Below, in pieces: positions 1 through 20,609 of a stretch of DNA of 20,609 nt. Location of the stretch: IMG/VR virus record IMGVR_UViG_3300036766_000535, positions 1 to 20,609 of that record. One strand, written 5' to 3'. How positions within the stretch are numbered: position 1 is the first letter of the stretch; every line of letters starts with the position of its first letter. A model generated the notes under the pieces. The model was not told the origin of the DNA. It made no database searches and saw only the letters and a list, made by a program, of their open reading frames with translations. Position numbers and translations under genes: made by a program. Source of the stretch: a virus.

Positions 1-802
1 ATTTCATCGAGCAGAACTTTTTGACGTCAGGACGATTGCACGGATATTCCTTAAATTCCGTCGCGCACTGATCGCAACAAAAGGTCGTCTTTCCACCTCT
101 CCATGAGTGATTGTTCTCGCCAATCATGCCGTTCCTGATATTGAAAACAGGTTCGGCATCGCGCGACAACTTGCATTGCTCGATTACTTTGGCAACGCAT
201 CCATCAGGGTCGGCGTTAATCTGCGTACCGTTGAACCGAAACACTTTGAAGCCAGCTTGCGCAAGCTCTTGGTCTCGTTTCGCGTCTCTTGCCATTGGCT
301 CTGGCAAGCGATGACGCGCTCCGTCAGCTTCGACAATAACCGCAGATTGGGTAATCTCGATATCAACGCAATACTTGCTCAATTTCAATTGCTGCGTCGA
401 AAACGAAATACCGGCTCGTTGTAATGCCAAGTGAAGCAGTCTTTCAAGCGGAGAATTGGCGGACGGGCCAGACATCGAAGGCAATCTCCTCAACAGATTT
501 TGCCTCATCTTCTCTCTCGTCTCTGGGCGTGCCAAAGCCGCACGATGAGTAGCGCGACGTTTATCGCCCCAGACGTAGCCTTTTGGAAGGCCCCTCTGTT
601 TGCGAACTACATCACGCAATTTCATCTCGTTATGCACTTTGTGCCCACTGCAATCGAACGCTCGCGCGACTTCCGCAATTGTTCCCAATTCATCATAGAT
701 AGCTTGAAGGTTGCTCCAGTCCAACAAGATGCTCCCCGTATAGTCTCTACGGAGTCCCAGTCCATTCTGGGTTCCCTCGGCGTTGTCCACATGTCCTGAC
801 AT
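1..802 (-). CDS. Intron-encoded Vsr/DUF559-like homing endonuclease, partial (3' end off the window)
   Basis: An open frame of 267 codons from ATG at 802 runs without a stop to the left edge. Residues about 38-60 look like a helix-turn-helix (TIAEVARAF...SGHKVHNEMK). Residues 117-192 match the Vsr/DUF559 fold of PD-(D/E)XK nucleases: E120 in SPLERLL, Q137/Q138, D147 in YCVDIEI, EADGARH at 158-164, RDQEL at 176-180 and GFKVFRF at 184-190. This resembles the EDxHD homing nucleases related to Vsr that live in phage group I introns. Residues 231-267 hold NHSWRGG, then C243-x2-C246 and C264, a zinc-finger-like module often attached to homing endonucleases; its last ligand should lie beyond the edge. 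The predicted role is to cut intron-less capsid alleles and so spread the intron. ATG 802 lies inside the folded intron core (P5 region) and has a weak ribosome site. TTG codons at 727 and 724 follow a GGGGAG and are possible alternative starts. The family is fairly sure; the exact subclass is inference. Confidence 0.8.
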   Translation of the reverse strand, partial: MSGHVDNAEGTQNGLGLRRDYTGSILLDWSNLQAIYDELGTIAEVARAFDCSGHKVHNEMKLRDVVRKQRGLPKGYVWGDKRRATHRAALARPETREKMRQNLLRRLPSMSGPSANSPLERLLHLALQRAGISFSTQQLKLSKYCVDIEITQSAVIVEADGARHRLPEPMARDAKRDQELAQAGFKVFRFNGTQINADPDGCVAKVIEQCKLSRDAEPVFNIRNGMIGENNHSWRGGKTTFCCDQCATEFKEYPCNRPDVKKFCSMK

Positions 803-881
803 AATTAGCTCAGCGAAGGATGTTCACCGATACAGGGGAGTGTTCATCATTGCGTCACCGCAATGAGGCCCGCGTTTGTCC
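1..881 (-). ncRNA. Group I self-splicing intron in the major capsid gene (5' part; 3' splice site off the window)
   Basis: The capsid frame stops resembling capsid after codon 48, at T882. From there a group I core can be folded. P1: exon GAGG and CCU (890-882, with CG bulged) pair with CCUC and GGG (865-871), placing a U-G wobble at the splice site. P2: a 7-bp hairpin CATTGCG/CGCAATG with a GUGA tetraloop (865-848; C865 is shared with P1, so one of the two loses a pair). P3: CTCCCC-T-GTA (840-831) pairs with TACGGGGAG (740-732). P4: TCGGTG (830-825) pairs with CGCCGA (782-777). P6a: CCCAG/CTGGG (771-767, 760-756). P7 5' strand: AGACTA (746-741), directly before the P3 3' strand, as in the conserved R element. 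The matching TAGTC of P7 3' is absent from 1-720, so P8/P7'/P9 and the 3' splice site should lie beyond the left edge, with the endonuclease frame in between. The helices were drawn by eye, not scored. Confidence 0.82.
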
Positions 882-1025
882 AGGCGCCTCAAGGTCATAC
901 GCCGTCAGGCCCGTAGTTGCGGTTCCCGACTGCGTGTACGCCTTGCCCAGGATCGAGGGGTCGGCGTTGGCCTGAGCCTCTTTCATGAGCCTCCGCGTTT
1001 CCGCGGACGTTTCGTTTGCGTTCAT
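882..1025 (-). CDS. HK97-like major capsid protein, first exon (interrupted)
   Basis: ATG at 1025 follows a GAGGAG ribosome site (1035-1040). The first 48 codons hold ATTGLTAYDLEAP (residues 36-48) after KEAQANADPSILGKAYTQ, which I recognise as the N-terminal stretch of a common phage HK97-fold capsid family. Members of this family normally continue AKxLYPVLTPLRN. Here the frame instead goes GQTRASLR and stops at 857-855. The capsid would otherwise be only 56 residues, and its normal place, right after the prohead protease, is occupied by this gene. The break falls exactly after CCT (882), which fits a group I 5' splice site. Unspliced message would give the 56-residue dead-end product, with its stop codon inside the P2 tetraloop. 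The second exon should lie left of the window. Recognition of the family is from memory of the motif, not a search. Confidence 0.8.
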
Positions 1026-3211: not shown

Positions 3212-3369
3212 GCCAGCGCCTTTCTGAGTAACTCGGATAGCCTCTTCTCGATTTTCTCGGCTTCATCAGGATCTTCGGAAGTTTCTGGAACATCACGCCA
3301 ATCACGCGGCGTCTTGTCGTAACGATGCGTCGCAAAAAATTCATCCATCAATTGCTGATCGGTTTTCAT
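3208..3369 (-). CDS. Small acidic helical protein of unknown function (53 aa)
   Basis: The chosen start is ATG 3369, which overlaps the topoisomerase stop as ATGA; an upstream in-frame ATG at 3393 would overlap more and has no clear advantage. The product MKTDQQLMDEFFATHRYDKT... is mainly charged, with a C-terminal helix rich in Glu and Lys (DEAEKIEKRLSELLRKALA). No family is recognised. The ATGA junctions on both sides place it in the translationally coupled head operon. Confidence 0.55.
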   Translation of the reverse strand: MKTDQQLMDEFFATHRYDKTPRDWRDVPETSEDPDEAEKIEKRLSELLRKALA

Positions 3370-4931
3370 GTCCCATGACCCTGTGGATGCCACGAACTGA
3401 ACACGGCCGGATTGATATAGGAGGCCAGCGCCACGGATGCAGTATTGCCAAGAAAACGAGCTACCGTTTTTCCAACGGCTAACCGTTGACTCTTAAATTG
3501 CCGCTCAGTTTTTGGAGGCGGTGGTTTCGCTACTTCACGCAACGCCAATGCGGTCGCGTGCCACGTGCGGAAATCTTTGACCTTGAAATCATCGCCCGCC
3601 TTGCTGTGAAAATAGTCTCGTACTGCTGCGTCGGTGGTCTTGAATAAGGCACCGTCACCATTCGCCGCCTGCCGCTCGCTGATGTACGCCGCAAGTGCTG
3701 GATGATCTAACTCTTTGGTGATCTCCACACCTTTTTTTCCGGTAAATTCAAACCGCAGATTATTACCATCGACCACGACATGCGAACCGAGTAGCGTCGT
3801 CGCCCCGTAGGCTTGTTTGTCTGCGCCAGTGTCCGCCGTGCCGCCGATCCTGAAGCCCGTCTCGGCAATCAGCGCAGTGGCGGCGGCAGTATCGCGTTGG
3901 CCTTGATTTAAGTCTGTGTTCTGCATATCTTTAAGCGCGATATCACGCACAGCCGGGGCCACCTTGTTAAATTCTTGCAGGCGTGCGAATTTCTCAGCCG
4001 CCGCACGCTCTGAGTGCTCTGCGCTGTAAAGATATTGGTCACGTCCTTTTGAATCTTTACCAACGACTTGCAAATCGCCTTTGGCATCTGGATTTAGTTC
4101 TACATTCGTCCAAGCAGGCGGAACTCCGAGCGCCTTCATGCGGGACTGATCTTCAGCACTTAGCGATTTCCCATCGCGCATCCATACACTATCTTTATTG
4201 GAAATGCCGCCGCTACCTTCGCCGAACCGTCCGTAGTCATCGCGAGGATGGTCTTCTTCATTCCACTCGATCTTCGTTAGCAGCAACGCAAATAGTCCAC
4301 GCCTCAGTGGCTTCGTGGTGTCACCTTCCGCGAGCCACGCCTTGAAATCCGCCATCGGTAGCGAGACCATCGAGCCGAGCCCGGTCCATCCGCGCTCGTA
4401 GTTCTCCAGGTACGCGGCGCGGGCATCATCGGTGCGCTCCCATCCGAGCATAACCTTGTATTCATCGAACTTGCCGCCGACGTTTTGATTCACCACGTGC
4501 ACCGGCCCCGCGTAGTCATCCGGCGTGCCCACGCGCACGAAACAATCGACGTGGTCCCCGTCGGCTCCCATCGTGAGACGGATATACCCGTAGTGGGATT
4601 TAAGTGTCGGCCATTCCGGTCGACGATGGGAGCCAGCGGGGTTTTCGATGCTCACGTCCAGACCGCCGATACGCAGGTGGCCTTTCGGATAGTTGCCAGC
4701 GGTCTTCTGATCTTCCGTCGGCTGCGGCTTCAGGTTAAGCGGGCTGGTCGCGGCGGCGTGCGCGGCGCGGTCGGTGGTCACGTCACCCTTCACCACGCAT
4801 AGCCTCATCCTCAGCGCAGCCGCAAGCCGGCGACGCTTCGCGCGGCGCTGCCCCTCCAGCGAGTATCCGGCAAGGCCGGATGTCGCCGTCGATGGCGCTG
4901 CGTATTCCTTCAGAAGAGCGGAAAGCTGCAT
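3366..4931 (-). CDS. Fusion of pyrophosphatase-like domain and type IB DNA topoisomerase
   Basis: A 521-residue protein with two recognisable parts. Residues about 74-200 (YPKGHLRIGGLDVSIENPAG, SHYGYI, GADGDHVDCFV, GGKFDEYKVMLG) match the inorganic-pyrophosphatase-like domain known from large phage polyvalent proteins. A short linker at 222-242 has HPRDDYGRFG, a motif common in phage head proteins. Residues about 262-510 match poxvirus/bacterial-type topoisomerase IB: ALGVPPAW, DLQVVGKDSKGRDQYLY, FARLQEFNKVAPAVRD, TGFRIGG, YGATTLLGSHV, FTGKKGVE, DFRTWHAT, LGNTASVALASYINPAV. The expected catalytic residues are all present: R361, K399, R455, N496 and Y505, the last two nine residues apart as in bacterial TopIB. 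Such enzymes nick one strand through a 3'-phosphotyrosine and relax supercoils. The gene sits among head genes, not replication genes, so the protein may be packaged or act during packaging or ejection; that is inference. The start follows the previous stop by 3 bases and its ribosome site is weak. Confidence 0.85.
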   Translation of the reverse strand: MQLSALLKEYAAPSTATSGLAGYSLEGQRRAKRRRLAAALRMRLCVVKGDVTTDRAAHAAATSPLNLKPQPTEDQKTAGNYPKGHLRIGGLDVSIENPAGSHRRPEWPTLKSHYGYIRLTMGADGDHVDCFVRVGTPDDYAGPVHVVNQNVGGKFDEYKVMLGWERTDDARAAYLENYERGWTGLGSMVSLPMADFKAWLAEGDTTKPLRRGLFALLLTKIEWNEEDHPRDDYGRFGEGSGGISNKDSVWMRDGKSLSAEDQSRMKALGVPPAWTNVELNPDAKGDLQVVGKDSKGRDQYLYSAEHSERAAAEKFARLQEFNKVAPAVRDIALKDMQNTDLNQGQRDTAAATALIAETGFRIGGTADTGADKQAYGATTLLGSHVVVDGNNLRFEFTGKKGVEITKELDHPALAAYISERQAANGDGALFKTTDAAVRDYFHSKAGDDFKVKDFRTWHATALALREVAKPPPPKTERQFKSQRLAVGKTVARFLGNTASVALASYINPAVFSSWHPQGHGT

Positions 4932-4934
4932 GGC

Positions 4935-5216
4935 CTACGTATTCGCGATCACCGAAACCTTGCCGCCCGGCGTTACCTTGACATACTCGGTCGAGTTCGC
5001 CGCCATGCGCGGATGGTTCGCCGTCGCATCACCGACGACGGTGTACGAACAGACTACGTCCGTGTGCAACCTCACCGCATGGGTCAGGTCGTTGAACGCG
5101 ACCGACGAGTTCGCCGCCGAGCCGATGGTCACCGGCGTCTGGTTAGCGACCGGCGGGCCAGACGGGAGTCCTGAAATATCGACGCCGCCGAACTCTTGAA
5201 TGTACAGTTTGCTCAT
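4935..5216 (-). CDS. Small beta-rich virion-type protein (93 aa), function unknown
   Basis: ATG 5216 is preceded by a good ribosome site (TGAGGAGCGAAT). The product has no signal peptide and alternates short hydrophobic and polar stretches (TPVTIGSAANSSVAFNDLTH, YVKVTPGGKVSVIAN), typical of a small all-beta sheet. Similar small proteins occur among phage head decoration and completion genes, but no specific family is claimed. It lies between the lipoprotein/58-aa pair and the topoisomerase fusion. Confidence 0.65.
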   Translation of the reverse strand: MSKLYIQEFGGVDISGLPSGPPVANQTPVTIGSAANSSVAFNDLTHAVRLHTDVVCSYTVVGDATANHPRMAANSTEYVKVTPGGKVSVIANT

Positions 5217-5225
5217 ATTCGCTCC

Positions 5226-5402
5226 TCAGACTTGAATGTGCATAATCGGTTCGTCGCTCGTCGGTACGGATGCTTGCTCGTGTGCCTGGCGCGCGGCGTA
5301 TATCGCGGCACCGACCTGCGTATCGGTCGCGCCGTACTCTAGCCCGAGCGCGAGCAATACGCGGTGCCAAGTAGTTGCAAAAATGTTTTCCGTGGAATCC
5401 AT
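5226..5402 (-). CDS. Small protein of unknown function (58 aa)
   Basis: The frame ATG 5402 to TGA 5226 encodes MDSTENIFATTWHRVLLALG and then LEYGATDTQVGAAIYAARQA, ending HIQV. It has a very strong purine-rich ribosome site, AGAGGAAGAGGAA, directly before ATG. It fills the otherwise empty gap between the lipoprotein gene (ends 5418) and the 93-aa gene (starts 5216). It is likely helical and has no recognised family. Confidence 0.65.
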   Translation of the reverse strand: MDSTENIFATTWHRVLLALGLEYGATDTQVGAAIYAARQAHEQASVPTSDEPIMHIQV

Positions 5403-5417
5403 TTCCTCTTCCTCTCG

Positions 5418-5771
5418 TTATCCGACCGCAAAAAACGGTCCCGCCCCGACCCGGCATATCTCCTGCCCGCGAATCCACGGTGTCTTTCCGGCCTGTATCA
5501 CGATGGCGCAGGACTTGACGCCATCCCACACCCAGGCACCATGAGCGAGTCCGCGAACGTGCTCGTGCTCATATCGCCGCCCGATCTCATCCCACGCCGG
5601 ACTGAACCAGATCGCGCGGCGGGACTTGTCATAGCAGCCGCCTGTGTGTTCGATCGCGGGACAGGCGACGCCGGGAAATTCGAGGTACTGTTCGCCGTCA
5701 ATGGTCACCACGCGCGGCGAGGGGACCACGGCGCACCCGGCGAGCAATAGAAGGATCAGCACGTACTTCAT
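5418..5771 (-). CDS. Small secreted lipoprotein (117 aa)
   Basis: The N-terminus MKYVLILLLLAGCAVV is a lipoprotein signal: one Lys, a Leu-rich core and the lipobox LAGC, which would be lipidated on Cys13. The mature part has four further cysteines, in ACPAIEHTGGCYD, VKSCAIV and EICRVGAG, suggesting disulfides outside the cytoplasm. A segment EHEHVRGLAHG at about 67-77 recalls metal-ligand clusters but lacks a proper HExxH, so no protease call is made. It shares ATGA with the stop of the LamG-like gene. Phage lipoproteins can act in lysis (outer spanin) or superinfection exclusion; neither is shown here. It is odd to find it inside a virion-structure cluster. Confidence 0.7.
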   Translation of the reverse strand: MKYVLILLLLAGCAVVPSPRVVTIDGEQYLEFPGVACPAIEHTGGCYDKSRRAIWFSPAWDEIGRRYEHEHVRGLAHGAWVWDGVKSCAIVIQAGKTPWIRGQEICRVGAGPFFAVG

Positions 5772-6820
5772 GAACTCACCGCCGCATTACTCGCCGCCGA
5801 CGCTGCGCTGGTGTTGACGCTGTTCGTGGACGTAACCGTGAACGTGTAGGTGCCCGGGACGCAAGTCACGACGACCGGGCTGGACGTGGCGTAACCGACG
5901 AAGCCGCCGTGGTCGCTAGTAGCGATGTAGGTCTCCGCCGGATCTCCGACGCTCGCGCCGGGCGTGAATGCGACCGAGACGCTGCCGGAGCCGCCGGTCG
6001 CAGTGCCGATGGTCGGCACGTTCGGCGTGGGGACGCAGGCTTGGAGGAAAGTGGCGATGCGGTTGTAGAGGGCGAGTTGTTCGGTGGCGTCAAGCGCCCC
6101 CCCAAGACCAGCATCAACTATATTGCCTGGGTAAAAATTAGTAGCATCAGTAGAATTTTTAAACAATTTAACATTGCCATTGCTAAGTGAATTCGCAACA
6201 GCCGAACCAGAAACGATATAAACCCCATTCAAATAAATATCAAGGTTGTCAGACGCCGTTCTACTTCCTAGGTATAAGGCCCCAGCAGAAGGGGGAGACG
6301 GAAACACAGCGTCTTGCCCATTGTTAATAGTCACGGACCCTTGATTACCTCCCCAGTCAGGATATATATAATCATAGGCACCAATACCTATAATCGATGC
6401 ATTACTACTCTGATTGCTAATCCCCTGTGCAAATAGTGAAGCACTATTTTGAGTCCACAGACCACCGGCTGTTGAAGGATTGAAATTTGTGTCTACATAA
6501 GAATCCGAACTAGTCGTTGTGAAACCTCCATCCTTCGTGAACCCTGGTGTCCCAACCATCGTAGCCTTAAACGCTGCCTGCACTAGATTGGTCAGCGCGG
6601 TGTCGGTGTCCGCGTTGTCCTCGCTGACATAGAGGTAGAGCGTGTCGAGCTTCGACCACACTCCATCCGCCACCAGCCCGTCGATCAGGGTGACGTATAA
6701 CGCCGTGCGCGTGGGCGAGGGCGGCGTCGACAGGCGGGCGAGGAACTGGGTGACTTCGGGGGAGTCGCCGCCGCCACTAGATGGCTGCACACCGAACAGC
6801 AGTTGCGCGATGCGGTTCAT
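5768..6820 (-). CDS. LamG-like and FnIII-like virion appendage protein (350 aa)
   Basis: The start ATG 6820 overlaps the previous stop by one base (TAATG); an in-frame ATG at 6850 would overlap the upstream gene more. Residues about 40-260 resemble concanavalin/LamG-like phage appendage domains: DGVWSKLDTLYLYVSEDN at 52-69, FTKDGGFTT, YVDTNFNPS, ALYLGSRTAS at 181-190, DIYLNGVY at 194-201 and the closing LALYNRIATFLQ at 249-260. Residues about 267-350 are a fibronectin-III/Ig-like beta domain (PNVPTIGTATGGSGSVSVAF, YTFTVTSTNS). Such modules bind carbohydrates on host surfaces or decorate the head. The stretch coding residues about 87-237 (6110-6560) is clearly AT-richer than both flanks, a sign of recent exchange of the binding domain. 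Function is inferred from fold resemblance. Confidence 0.72.
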   Translation of the reverse strand: MNRIAQLLFGVQPSSGGGDSPEVTQFLARLSTPPSPTRTALYVTLIDGLVADGVWSKLDTLYLYVSEDNADTDTALTNLVQAAFKATMVGTPGFTKDGGFTTTSSDSYVDTNFNPSTAGGLWTQNSASLFAQGISNQSSNASIIGIGAYDYIYPDWGGNQGSVTINNGQDAVFPSPPSAGALYLGSRTASDNLDIYLNGVYIVSGSAVANSLSNGNVKLFKNSTDATNFYPGNIVDAGLGGALDATEQLALYNRIATFLQACVPTPNVPTIGTATGGSGSVSVAFTPGASVGDPAETYIATSDHGGFVGYATSSPVVVTCVPGTYTFTVTSTNSVNTSAASAASNAAVSS

Positions 6821-7548
6821 TAGGCCAGCCCCGTGCCAGAGATGATCCAACTCGTCGCACTCTTCTTCAGCGCGACCGCGATGCCCGACGCGGCGAGAGT
6901 CCGCGGCCCGTTCGACCCGGCGCCGGCGAGGATCAGCTCATCCGAATCGATGTCAACCGTCACCGTGTTGATCTCGTTGACGAAGGTCAGCGCCTGACCA
7001 ATCGGAACCGCGACATTCGCATTCGCGGCGATGATGTAGGTCCGATTGTTCGCGTCCGCCGTCGGGTGCAGGATGAAGTTCGCGGTATCGCCGAGGTTCG
7101 TCGTGTAGTTCCCGGCCTGGCTGTTGACGGTCAGCGAGACCGTAGCGAACTCCGACGCGTTGTGCGTCGCTGCCGTGCCTAATCCGAGGTTTGTACGCGC
7201 ATTACCAGCGTTCCCAAGATCGGATAAATTCGACGCCTTTGCTAGCGCGGCATCGGCCGTATTGCCTTGCGTCGAAGTCGCGAATGACGATGCCGCCGCA
7301 GTCGCGGCAGTACCGAGGCCGAGATTCGATCGCGCCGTCGTCGTGCTCAGCAGGTCGGCCAGGTTCAGCGTCTTCAGCAGCGCCAGCGGGTCCGCCTCCG
7401 CAGACGATGGCGGCAGTACCACCCAGCCGTTCGCCGCGAGTATCTCGCCATCGAAGTCGGGAACCTCCTGCGCGACGTTCACAACCCCTGTATAGGTACG
7501 CCCGTTGATCGTCACGATCAAGCGCACTGGGTTCGGCATCATTCTCAT
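6820..7548 (-). CDS. Fibre/appendage protein with NLGLGTAAT repeats (242 aa)
   Basis: ATG 7548 is chosen because it shares ATGA with the MuF gene stop and is preceded by GAGGAGGAA; a further upstream in-frame ATG (7593) would lie deep in the MuF gene. Residues 1-45 (PNPVRLIVTINGRTYTGVVN..., FDGEILAANGWVVL) form a small N-terminal attachment domain. Two copies of a classic tail-fibre repeat follow: TARSNLGLGTAAT with ASSFATSTQGN, and NARTNLGLGTAAT with ASEFAT. The C-terminal about 100 residues (NFILHPTADANNRTYIIAAN, ILAGAGSNGPRTL) are beta-rich and probably trimeric. It is likely a virion fibre or head-decoration fibre; the receptor is unknown. Confidence 0.72.
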   Translation of the reverse strand: MRMMPNPVRLIVTINGRTYTGVVNVAQEVPDFDGEILAANGWVVLPPSSAEADPLALLKTLNLADLLSTTTARSNLGLGTAATAAASSFATSTQGNTADAALAKASNLSDLGNAGNARTNLGLGTAATHNASEFATVSLTVNSQAGNYTTNLGDTANFILHPTADANNRTYIIAANANVAVPIGQALTFVNEINTVTVDIDSDELILAGAGSNGPRTLAASGIAVALKKSATSWIISGTGLA

Positions 7549-8366
7549 GCTGGTTCCTCCTCGGGTTCGGCGAGCACAGGCTCGATATCGCAAATGCAGT
7601 TCGGGTGCGCAGGAGGTGCGAAATCTCCCGTGCCAAAATCGTCCTCAAAGTCGATCACACCTTCGTCCGCGGCATCATCGCATTCGTCGGGAACGTCGTG
7701 AAGGTCTCCGAGAATCCACCGCTTACCCGTCACCTCGCCAGACTGTCGCCAGCCCGCGACGTTGCCCTCGACGTGCGCCATCGCGAGTTCCGTCCGCGCG
7801 ATCATCATCGCCCGCTCCTCGCTAAACGCACCAGACTCCTCGATGGCGTCCCTTAATCGCGCCGGGCTCCAGCCTTCCTCGACCGCCTGCGTGGTGCTTA
7901 ACCGCAAGTAGTCGCGCGTGGTCTCGTCGATACTCCACTTCGCGTTCGGGTTGTCAACCAGCTCGCCAGCAACTATCTTCTTGCCAACCAGTTCCGCCCC
8001 GCGTTCCTCGACGTAGGCTCGCGCCTGTTCGTCCAGGTGGTTCACGATCTCGTCGGTCGGCTCCATCTTCACCTGCGCCAGTCCTGCGGTCGCCGCCCGT
8101 TCGTATATCGCTAACAGCTCGGCGCTGATCTCGTCCACCACGTCCGCGCCGAACGCATCGAGATCAAGCTGGGCGAGAATCTCTTTAACCAGGTCTTCCG
8201 TGGACTGCGCCTTCGCGACCTTGCCGACCTTTTCCGACAACAGCCGCGCGACCTTCTTCCCGAGCGATCGCGCCCATTCCGCGAACAGCGCCCTGAGCGA
8301 CGCCGCGACCTTATCCTGCCGGTCTTCGACGGCCTGGGCCAGCTTCGTATGCTGGTGCTTAGCCAT
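7545..8366 (-). CDS. MuF-like head morphogenesis protein (SPP1 gp7 family)
   Basis: A 273-residue protein. The C-terminal half has the hallmarks of the phage Mu gpF / SPP1 gp7 domain: STTQAVEEGWSPARLRDAI at about 157-175, ARTELAMAHVEGNVAGW at 190-206, KRWILGDLHDVPDECDDAA at 215-233 and the final HPNCICDIEPV at 254-264, with C229, C257 and C259 likely holding a metal. The N-terminal half is helical. These minor head proteins sit inside or at the portal and help capsid assembly or DNA ejection. In related phages the gene usually follows the portal directly; here about 3.9 kb of fibre-like genes lie between them. The start ATG 8366 overlaps the previous gene by 8 bases. Confidence 0.88.
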   Translation of the reverse strand: MAKHQHTKLAQAVEDRQDKVAASLRALFAEWARSLGKKVARLLSEKVGKVAKAQSTEDLVKEILAQLDLDAFGADVVDEISAELLAIYERAATAGLAQVKMEPTDEIVNHLDEQARAYVEERGAELVGKKIVAGELVDNPNAKWSIDETTRDYLRLSTTQAVEEGWSPARLRDAIEESGAFSEERAMMIARTELAMAHVEGNVAGWRQSGEVTGKRWILGDLHDVPDECDDAADEGVIDFEDDFGTGDFAPPAHPNCICDIEPVLAEPEEEPA

Positions 8367-18864: not shown

Positions 18865-19178
18865 GCGTCGGTAAAAGCGAGAATCTCGGATGCCTCCGGC
18901 TTGGAGAGGCGGCTATCGCGCCGATAGACCACGTCGAAGCCGTCGCCGTCGATCGCGGGCAGGATTTCGGCGTCGCGTTCGTGATACCGCTCCCAGGCGA
19001 GTATAATGAGCTGCTTCCACTTCTTCGCGCCGATGCGGTGCCCGGAGCCTTCGGGCCAGTCGCGCCCTCGGTCAATATCGAGGCACATAAGCTGAAAGGC
19101 GACCTTCTGCGGCTCGGTAATGACCTCGATAAGCTGGTGGCAATGCGGGCAGCGCGAGGTGAAAAAGGATTCGCTCAC
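18798..19178 (-). CDS. NinB-like phage recombination protein (126 aa)
   Basis: GTG 19178 shares GTGA with the methyltransferase stop. The C-terminal two thirds fit lambda NinB: KKWKQLIILAWERYHERDAE at 52-71, LPAIDGDGFDVVYR at 73-86 and the SRLSKPEASEILAFTDAWMA then ERGI segment at 89-112. NinB binds single-stranded DNA and promotes recombination through RecF-like pathways. The N-terminus carries an extra CPHC (10-13) and C32, a possible zinc knuckle that lambda NinB lacks. The gene neighbours a Ref-like nuclease, as in a recombination pair. Resemblance is by memory of the lambda protein. Confidence 0.68.
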   Translation of the reverse strand: MSESFFTSRCPHCHQLIEVITEPQKVAFQLMCLDIDRGRDWPEGSGHRIGAKKWKQLIILAWERYHERDAEILPAIDGDGFDVVYRRDSRLSKPEASEILAFTDAWMAERGIKRSRSFAERTAEPF

Positions 19179-20609
19179 AGGGAATCTTGATGCGTAAATT
19201 CCGCGCGCTGGACCTCGTCCTGGCCGTCACTGAACAGTTCCATGCCGACTTGCTGGGTTCGGTCTGCGACCAACTTTTCATAGTCGCCGTTCAGTTCAAT
19301 CAGCAGCCATTTCCTGCCTAGCGCCTCGGCTACCTGCCCGGTTGTGCCGCTGCCTCCGAACGGGTCAAGCACGGTGTCGCCCGGCTTGCTACCGGCTAGG
19401 ATGCAGGGTTCGATCAGCGCGGGCGGGAAGGTGGCGAAATGCGCCTCGCTGTATGGCTGCGTGGTCACTGTCCACACGCTGCGCTTGTTGCGGGTTTCGG
19501 TGCCTGTTACATATCCGCCCGATGGATGCCGGTTTCCGTCATTCCTGCCGCTATCTTCGCTATACGTGCCGCTAGGCTTGAACACCGCTTTCATGTTGCC
19601 GTTGGTCTTGCCGGGCACGCGATCACTGCCGGCCTGATTTTCTAAGTTAGGCTGCGACAGCCTCTCGACCGACGAATACGATAACGGTTCCGCAATCGCC
19701 GCAGCATCGAAGTAATACCGCTCGCTCTTGCTCAGCAGGAAAATGTATTCATGCGACTTTGTGCAACGGTCAGTCACGCTCTCAGGCATCGGGTTCGGCT
19801 TCGAGTTGTGCGTCAGCACGCCGGATGCGAGCGCGAACAGGTGTGGCTCGTCGGCAACGCCAACGTCGTAGACCCATCGGCAACGGCCCTTCTCGACACG
19901 CACTACGTCATCGCGCGAGCGTTCATTGTGATGGCCGCTGCGCGTCATCCTCAACTCGCCTTTGAATGATGGCCGTTCGCCATTTTGGAATTTTGAAATG
20001 GTAGGATTGAGCGTCAGCGTCCAATCAAGCCTCGCGCACGCAGTTCGTAGGTCTTGCTCCAGCGCGTAGTTGCGACAGAATCCAAGCCGCCAGCGTTGGT
20101 TCTTTTCCTCCCAATGTCCATCGCCGTCGAGATACCCGCGCAGGTACTCGGCAAGAAAGCGGTCGCTGTATCGCCACACCATTGGGGAAATATGCTTGTT
20201 GATCGCCGTCTTGCCTGAAACGAACTCGCGTACCAAACCAACCAGCAGCTTGCCGTACAGTCTGACATTCATGCAGTTGCCGCTGACTGTGCGCGTTGCG
20301 CTGCCGCCATAGGCCGCAGCGATCCGTTGCAATCTCTCCCATCGCACCGATTCCTTGGCGTGACCGGCGATCTGTATCGTGTCGGCCGCCATACTGCCTT
20401 CGGCCAAATACAGACCGGCGAACCACGCTGCGTCATCGCTTACGTGCGCGGGTGACTTCGGCGCATCCGGTTCTGGCAATCTGGAGCGCACCAGCCGGTC
20501 CCCAGGCTTTATCTCGGACGCTTCGAGTAGTCCGCGCGCCGTTGGAAACTTGTGCGTCGGTGTGCAGGAGACACGCTCACCGCTGCGCAATACCAGCGTC
20601 AACTCGGTA
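19175..20609 (-). CDS. DNA methyltransferase interrupted by an intein, C-terminal part (5' end off the window)
   Basis: The frame is open across the right edge; TTG 20602 is not a true start. The first about 268 residues in the window are intein (separate entry). The extein resumes at S (19804) with SKPNPMPESVTDRCTKSHEY, then IFLLSKSERYYFDAAAI, the conserved region of beta-class phage and bacterial methyltransferases that follows the DPPY motif. At the C-terminus, VWTVTTQPYSEAHFATFPPA, LIEPCILAGSKPGDTVLDPF and GGSGTTGQVAEALGRKWLLI hold motifs X and I. The missing N-terminal extein should carry motif IV. The target base is N6-adenine or N4-cytosine. The intein must splice out before the enzyme is active. 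The gene stop overlaps the NinB-like start as GTGA. Confidence 0.88.
   Translation of the reverse strand, partial: TELTLVLRSGERVSCTPTHKFPTARGLLEASEIKPGDRLVRSRLPEPDAPKSPAHVSDDAAWFAGLYLAEGSMAADTIQIAGHAKESVRWERLQRIAAAYGGSATRTVSGNCMNVRLYGKLLVGLVREFVSGKTAINKHISPMVWRYSDRFLAEYLRGYLDGDGHWEEKNQRWRLGFCRNYALEQDLRTACARLDWTLTLNPTISKFQNGERPSFKGELRMTRSGHHNERSRDDVVRVEKGRCRWVYDVGVADEPHLFALASGVLTHNSKPNPMPESVTDRCTKSHEYIFLLSKSERYYFDAAAIAEPLSYSSVERLSQPNLENQAGSDRVPGKTNGNMKAVFKPSGTYSEDSGRNDGNRHPSGGYVTGTETRNKRSVWTVTTQPYSEAHFATFPPALIEPCILAGSKPGDTVLDPFGGSGTTGQVAEALGRKWLLIELNGDYEKLVADRTQQVGMELFSDGQDEVQRAEFTHQDSL
19805..20609 (-). mobile_element. LAGLIDADG intein, C-terminal part
   Basis: Residue numbers count from the TTG at 20602. 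Block B: CTPTHKF at 13-19 (T14, H17). Homing endonuclease blocks: WFAGLYLAEGS at 60-70 and LAEYLRGYLDGDGHW at 150-164 are the two LAGLIDADG helices with acidic residues E68 and D159/D161. Block F: RWVYDVGVADEPHLFALASG at 242-261; block G: GVLTHN at 261-266, with the penultimate His and terminal Asn, followed by Ser+1. All splicing residues at the C-terminus are intact. Block A with the first Cys or Ser is off the edge. It is inserted directly before KPNPMPES, a highly conserved motif, as inteins prefer. Confidence 0.92.

Follow-up and report, generated by a model that had tools for sequence, protein, structure and literature searches.

The window, a linear viral contig of 20,609 nt taken whole, ends on its left side in a major capsid gene that breaks off after codon 48. 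We are highly confident that a mobile, probably self-splicing group I intron carrying a Vsr-like homing endonuclease separates codon 48 of this gene from codon 49. The earlier note had proposed a capsid gene split by such an intron, and both the match of the core to covariance models and the complete copies found in related phages support it. The contig edge falls inside the intron, and the contig extends no further left. The ribozyme core, the insertion site, the continuity of the exons and the nuclease family are established by sequence comparison with relatives; splicing and homing, as well as the cut site and where translation begins, we infer from comparative evidence.

Capsid exon 1 (48 codons, MNANETSAE...GLTAYDLEAP) occupies 882-1025 on the minus strand, from an ATG at 1025 to the U at 882 that forms the 5' splice site, and was delimited by translation, by alignment to intact capsid homologues and by an annotated homologue. 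Past ...GLTAYDLEAP the window frame reads GQTRASLR and runs into a TGA stop at 857-855, confirming the abrupt end noticed earlier, whereas intact relatives read on in the alignment as ...YDLxAPAKxLYPV.TPLRN. All nine intact capsid genes examined in intronless relatives run uninterrupted through the site. In phages of Arthrobacter and Alicyclobacillus the homologue bears the annotation major capsid or head protein (tblastn, E down to 2e-14), and a 641-aa head-maturation-protease-like gene lies upstream of exon 1 on the minus strand. By homology to annotated capsids and by its place after the head maturation protease, the split gene is a phage major capsid gene. As regards an HK97 fold, the PHROG family of the capsid carries no name, a PDB profile search with the capsid gave no match, and the AlphaFold model of the capsid homologue (pLDDT 32) was too poor to use. 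We also observed, in the head gene cluster, a single ORF (3366-4931, minus strand) with matches to an inorganic-pyrophosphatase-like domain (PF18823) as well as to a bacterial-type topoisomerase IB (PF01028, PF21338).

The 5' part of the intron covers positions 1-881 on the minus strand, its 3' half lying beyond the contig, and was assigned with two covariance models, R1 and R3, and with the complete homologues in three related contigs, L002, L027 and L032. All of its elements given here are on the minus strand. P1 (868-885) pairs GCCU^G (885-881) with CGGGC (872-868), placing U882.G871 at the splice site, and an equivalent hairpin is also present in folded L002, L027 and L028. The P2 hairpin, CAUUGCG-GUGA-CGCAAUG (848-865), read like P1 from the sequence, holds the in-frame capsid stop within its loop; in L002 and L027 its stem sequence is changed, with pairing and the GUGA tetraloop retained. 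The P3 5' strand, CUCCCC-U-GUA (831-840; R1/R3 alignments and two-sided changes), forms nine pairs, with one bulged U, with the 3' strand UACGGGGAG (732-740; R1 alignment), which includes a putative ribosome-binding site, GGGGAG (737-732). The R1 alignment places P4 (777-830; 830-825 with 782-777), also on pair counts and enclosing P5 and its extension, and, together with the sequence, P6 (776-774/753-751) and P6a (771-767/760-756), which span 751-776. The P7 5' strand GACUA (741-745), recognized from the sequence and from partners in relatives, directly precedes the P3 3' strand, and its own partner UAGUC would lie beyond the contig. The P8 5' strand (approximately 725-731, from alignment with L002, L027 and L029) likewise has its partner past the ORF and off the contig. 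Every RNA part claimed in the earlier note (P1 with its U-G, the GNRA loop of P2, a nine-pair P3, P4, P6a and GACUA before the P3 3' strand) was present in the sequence. The contig ends before the P7 3' strand, P9 and exon 2, and the endonuclease frame is open at the left edge, so that its end and the 3' splice site are indeed out of view, as had been stated.

Covariance searches gave the core strong support. Model R3, for which five ORF-less introns of L022/L023 were the sole input, matched the P3-P8 core of the window at 843-728 on the minus strand (66.5 bits, E~4e-18), and R1, which also includes L002, matched with 73.7 bits (E~1e-20); the resemblance goes beyond chance. R3 also matched L002, L027, L029 and L032, and R1 gave no match on L003-L021. 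Model R2, trained only on L022/L023 and covering the 3' domain (P7 3' strand, P9, P9.1 and tail), matched L002 (E~1e-14), L027 (1e-13), L029 (1.5e-15) and L032 (4e-16). In a ten-sequence alignment that was fitted to the model, and is biased towards it by construction, paired cells amounted to 93%, two-sided changes occurred at seven pairs of P3, P4 and P6 (reached by 2 of 500 shuffles), and the covariation score was 0.256, against 0.155 after shuffling and no more than 0.106 when partners were slid. P2, P7 and P8 lie outside the model yet vary with pairing retained: CAUUGCG/CGCAAUG, CAUACUG/CAGUAUG and CUGCGCA/UGCGCAG for P2, GACUA/UAGUC versus GACUG/CAGUC for P7, and GGUCUUG/CAAGAUC (L002), CACCUG/CAGGUG (L027) and CAUCUGG/CCAGAUG (L029) for P8.

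Rfam cmscan (RF00028) of the window, of its positions 1-1200 and of L002 returned no group I match, just weak chance ones, likely because of the long P8 insert; group I matches of this kind are documented to break up where an intron has a long endonuclease loop (PMC11878797). By contrast, the ORF-less cousins in L022/L023, which share the core (R1, R3) and the 3' domain (R2) with the nuclease-bearing family, do match RF00028 (Intron_gpI), with up to 86 bits. Minimum-energy folding alone did not yield the canonical fold (z -1.9), and the 155-nt 5' core had no blastn match among phage records.

The missing half of the intron could be examined in relatives interrupted at the same capsid site. In L002, exon 1 (4747-4884) is followed by an intron of 1071 nt (4885-5955) ending in ACTG and by exon 2, which starts at 5956 and reads AKMLYPVLCPLRN; splicing in silico gives a capsid of 507 aa. 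At the same codon boundary, introns of 1055 and 1060 nt, ending in CTG, interrupt the capsid genes of L027 (a 127-kb contig) and L032, and the spliced capsids of these two are 84% identical. In these complete introns P8 closes the ORF and is followed by the P7 3' strand, P9, the terminal G and then capsid sequence beginning AKxL.... For the P7 3' strand, L002 has CAGUC, which pairs with its GACUG, and L027, L029 and L032 have UAGUC. The relatives therefore contain what the earlier note had predicted beyond the edge, namely a TAGTC-type P7 3' strand (UAGUC or CAGUC), a terminal G before the second exon (L002, L027 and L032) and a capsid continuing AKxLYPV..., and L002, L027 and L032 provide complete, testable intron copies. 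L028 is a fifth copy at the site, beside the window and these three, and is cut off by its contig; L029 carries the intron family at a different place in the capsid gene. All six nuclease-bearing copies found thus interrupt capsid genes, and between them they occupy two sites. In L027 (about 4802-4810) and L032 (about 6491-6499, minus strand) we further observed that the TAG which terminates the endonuclease frame also belongs to the P7 3' strand (GCAUAGUCC), so that the coding sequence overlaps the ribozyme core precisely where the ORF ends.

The endonuclease ORF of the window (2-724, minus strand) is truncated at its 3' end and was assigned from Pfam, from its conserved start and from the fold of the L002 homologue. 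It matches DUF559 (PF04480, E 4.1e-15) and MTES_1575, and the DUF559 match extends to all six family members. Translation likely starts at TTG 724, seven bases past the GGGGAG inside P3; this start is preferred because the ORFs of the family (6/6) begin with GTG, TTG or ATG immediately before DWSNL and the DNA upstream is ribozyme. ATG 802 was considered and judged less likely, since the DNA upstream of DWSNL belongs to the ribozyme. The L002 homologue was modelled (mean pLDDT 66) with a three-helix unit at its N-terminus, together with a core of restriction-nuclease type and a hairpin resembling a zinc ribbon. Its core matched 3hrl (TM by target 0.77), which was also matched by sequence, and the I-Bth0305I catalytic domain 3r3p (TM by target 0.71), with weak Foldseek E-values of 0.04 and 0.07, respectively. 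Invariant residues that may include an EDxHD active site are, in L002 numbering, D121, E132-x-D134-G...H138, D145 and R148-D149. The nuclease had been described earlier as having an HTH, a PD-(D/E)XK core and a zinc finger: the core stands on the DUF559 match, while the other two parts are weaker, the HTH showing only as the three-helix unit of the L002 model and, for a single member of the six, as a Pfam match, and the putative zinc finger having its last Cys beyond the contig. In L029 (3863-4600), where the intron sits elsewhere in the capsid gene, the endonuclease has a duplicated DWSxLQ/HTH module, which suggests that repeats of this module may alter target specificity. A tblastn search of the endonuclease against phage records found only a weak match to a Corynebacterium phage helicase, and alignment of the endonuclease against genome contigs found no match.

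Taken together, these features suggest the following mechanism. The intron would fold within the transcript, an external guanosine bound at P7 would attack after U882, and the exons would be joined past the terminal G of the intron, restoring ...DLEAP|AKxL...; an unspliced mRNA would give just a 56-aa dead-end peptide. The putatively EDxHD-type endonuclease in the P8 loop would have a start of its own at TTG 724, served by the putative ribosome-binding site embedded in P3, and would cut intronless capsid alleles at the site, repair then copying the intron in. As this putative ribosome-binding site lies inside P3, translation of the nuclease would need P3 to be open and would compete with folding for splicing, so that the splicing fold and nuclease translation may be mutually competitive.

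Similarities between the phages support mobility, the endonuclease being more conserved than the flanking genes. Between the window and L002 the endonucleases are 62% identical and the proteases 37%, and intronless L003 has a protease more similar to the one in the window (54%); between L002 and L027 the endonucleases are 48% identical and the capsids and proteases 30%. At least four phages besides that of the window, some of them distant, have the element at this one capsid codon boundary, a recurrent occupation in phages with a capsid identity of only about 30%. The sequence before the site is GAGGCGCCT in all five intron-bearing alleles and in none of the nine intronless ones. This pattern of similarity, together with GAGGCGCCT at the site, agrees with an intron that moves, accompanied by co-conversion or a target preference; stronger selection on the nuclease could add to its higher conservation.

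A decayed intron, or a free-standing homing endonuclease gene splitting the capsid gene, would not splice and would leave a dead allele or a two-piece capsid. The window copy is incomplete, which leaves this reading some room. However, the core pairs are preserved by compensating changes, L002, L027 and L032 each have an intact ORF, two intact exons and an intact 3' domain, and, as the capsid is essential, a non-splicing copy should not last in several lineages. We consider this reading very unlikely. It is much harder still to sustain an assembly chimera in which the capsid gene is fused to foreign DNA at the contig end: the contig is a linear fragment ending inside the element, but the same junction of capsid codon and intron occurs in four other contigs (L002, L027, L028 and L032), and we rejected this reading on that recurrence.

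An intein or another in-frame protein insertion has a negligible probability. Inteins do occur in this phage, as the same contig holds an intein-bearing methylase, but here the capsid frame stops within nine codons, and the endonuclease has its own frame, its own start and no intein domain; the in-frame stop already refutes an intein. A mobile group I intron remains the best explanation. Two inteins were observed elsewhere: a DNA methylase gene of the window (19175-20608, minus strand; N-terminal part off the contig) carries one with a LAGLIDADG-like endonuclease domain, and the portal gene of L002 opens (1 to about 260) with an apparent intein C-terminal half (...GKPCWSGN^S).

The ORF-less cousins were observed in L022 (1663-4062, minus strand) and L023 (about 5663-7919, minus strand), where the single major capsid gene of each contig carries five group I introns of about 266-300 nt. 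Nine of these ten introns match RF00028 at E<=2e-5, and the tenth was recognized with R1/R2. Splicing all five in silico in L022, where each exon ends in T and each intron in G, gives a 381-aa capsid that aligns end to end with that of Streptomyces phage GiJojo; the full splice is claimed for L022 only, the automatic L023 splice sites for introns 1-2 being visibly wrong. A survey of Bastillevirinae reported at most three introns per gene (PMC11878797), and five in one capsid gene are possibly more surprising than the intron of the window. All six nuclease-bearing copies and all ten of these cousins lie in capsid genes, and they were found by searching with the endonuclease and the intron core, not with the capsid. 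Speculatively, and with a low probability, this may be a group I intron lineage specialized in phage major capsid genes, whose Vsr-like nuclease may cut a rival's capsid gene and whose splicing may gate late capsid output. If the bias is real, capsid genes would be hotspots of intron homing, and competition among co-infecting phages could be decided by the endonucleases of introns, as has been reported for PhiPA3 (PMC11620839).

Among known systems, the nuclease resembles I-Bth0305I, the EDxHD (Vsr-like) endonuclease of a phage group I intron, through the fold match to its catalytic domain (3r3p), although the structural match is only 18% identical. The host gene of I-Bth0305I is recA, as against the capsid gene for the window intron. 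I-Bth0305I has an extended multi-domain DNA-binding layout (PMC3943268). The earlier note was right that capsid introns are uncommon, but they are not unprecedented: splicing of the major capsid intron of LittleE, a Cluster J mycobacteriophage, was proven by RT-PCR and N-terminal sequencing (PMC3706429), and the same article cites a capsid-gene intron in Tuc2009. By description, the LittleE element is a putative group I intron of about 0.8 kb in the major capsid gene, with a U before it, a G at its end and an endonuclease ORF (PMC3706429), but its LAGLIDADG-like ORF runs on the opposite strand, whereas the ORF of the window is DUF559/Vsr-like, on the same strand and in P8. A Vsr-like endonuclease in a capsid intron recurring at one site was not found in the literature searched, of which coverage was partial; capsid-gene introns and Vsr-type intron nucleases are each already published, and only their recurrent combination at one site lacks a precedent in that literature. 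The terminase introns of Bastillevirinae carry endonucleases of the VSR superfamily (PMC11878797) and are, by description, similar as phage group I introns with a Vsr-type nuclease in a virion-assembly gene (PMC11878797), differing in that the host gene is the terminase rather than the capsid. The intron described here thus adds a Vsr-type mobile family to the short list of capsid-gene introns.
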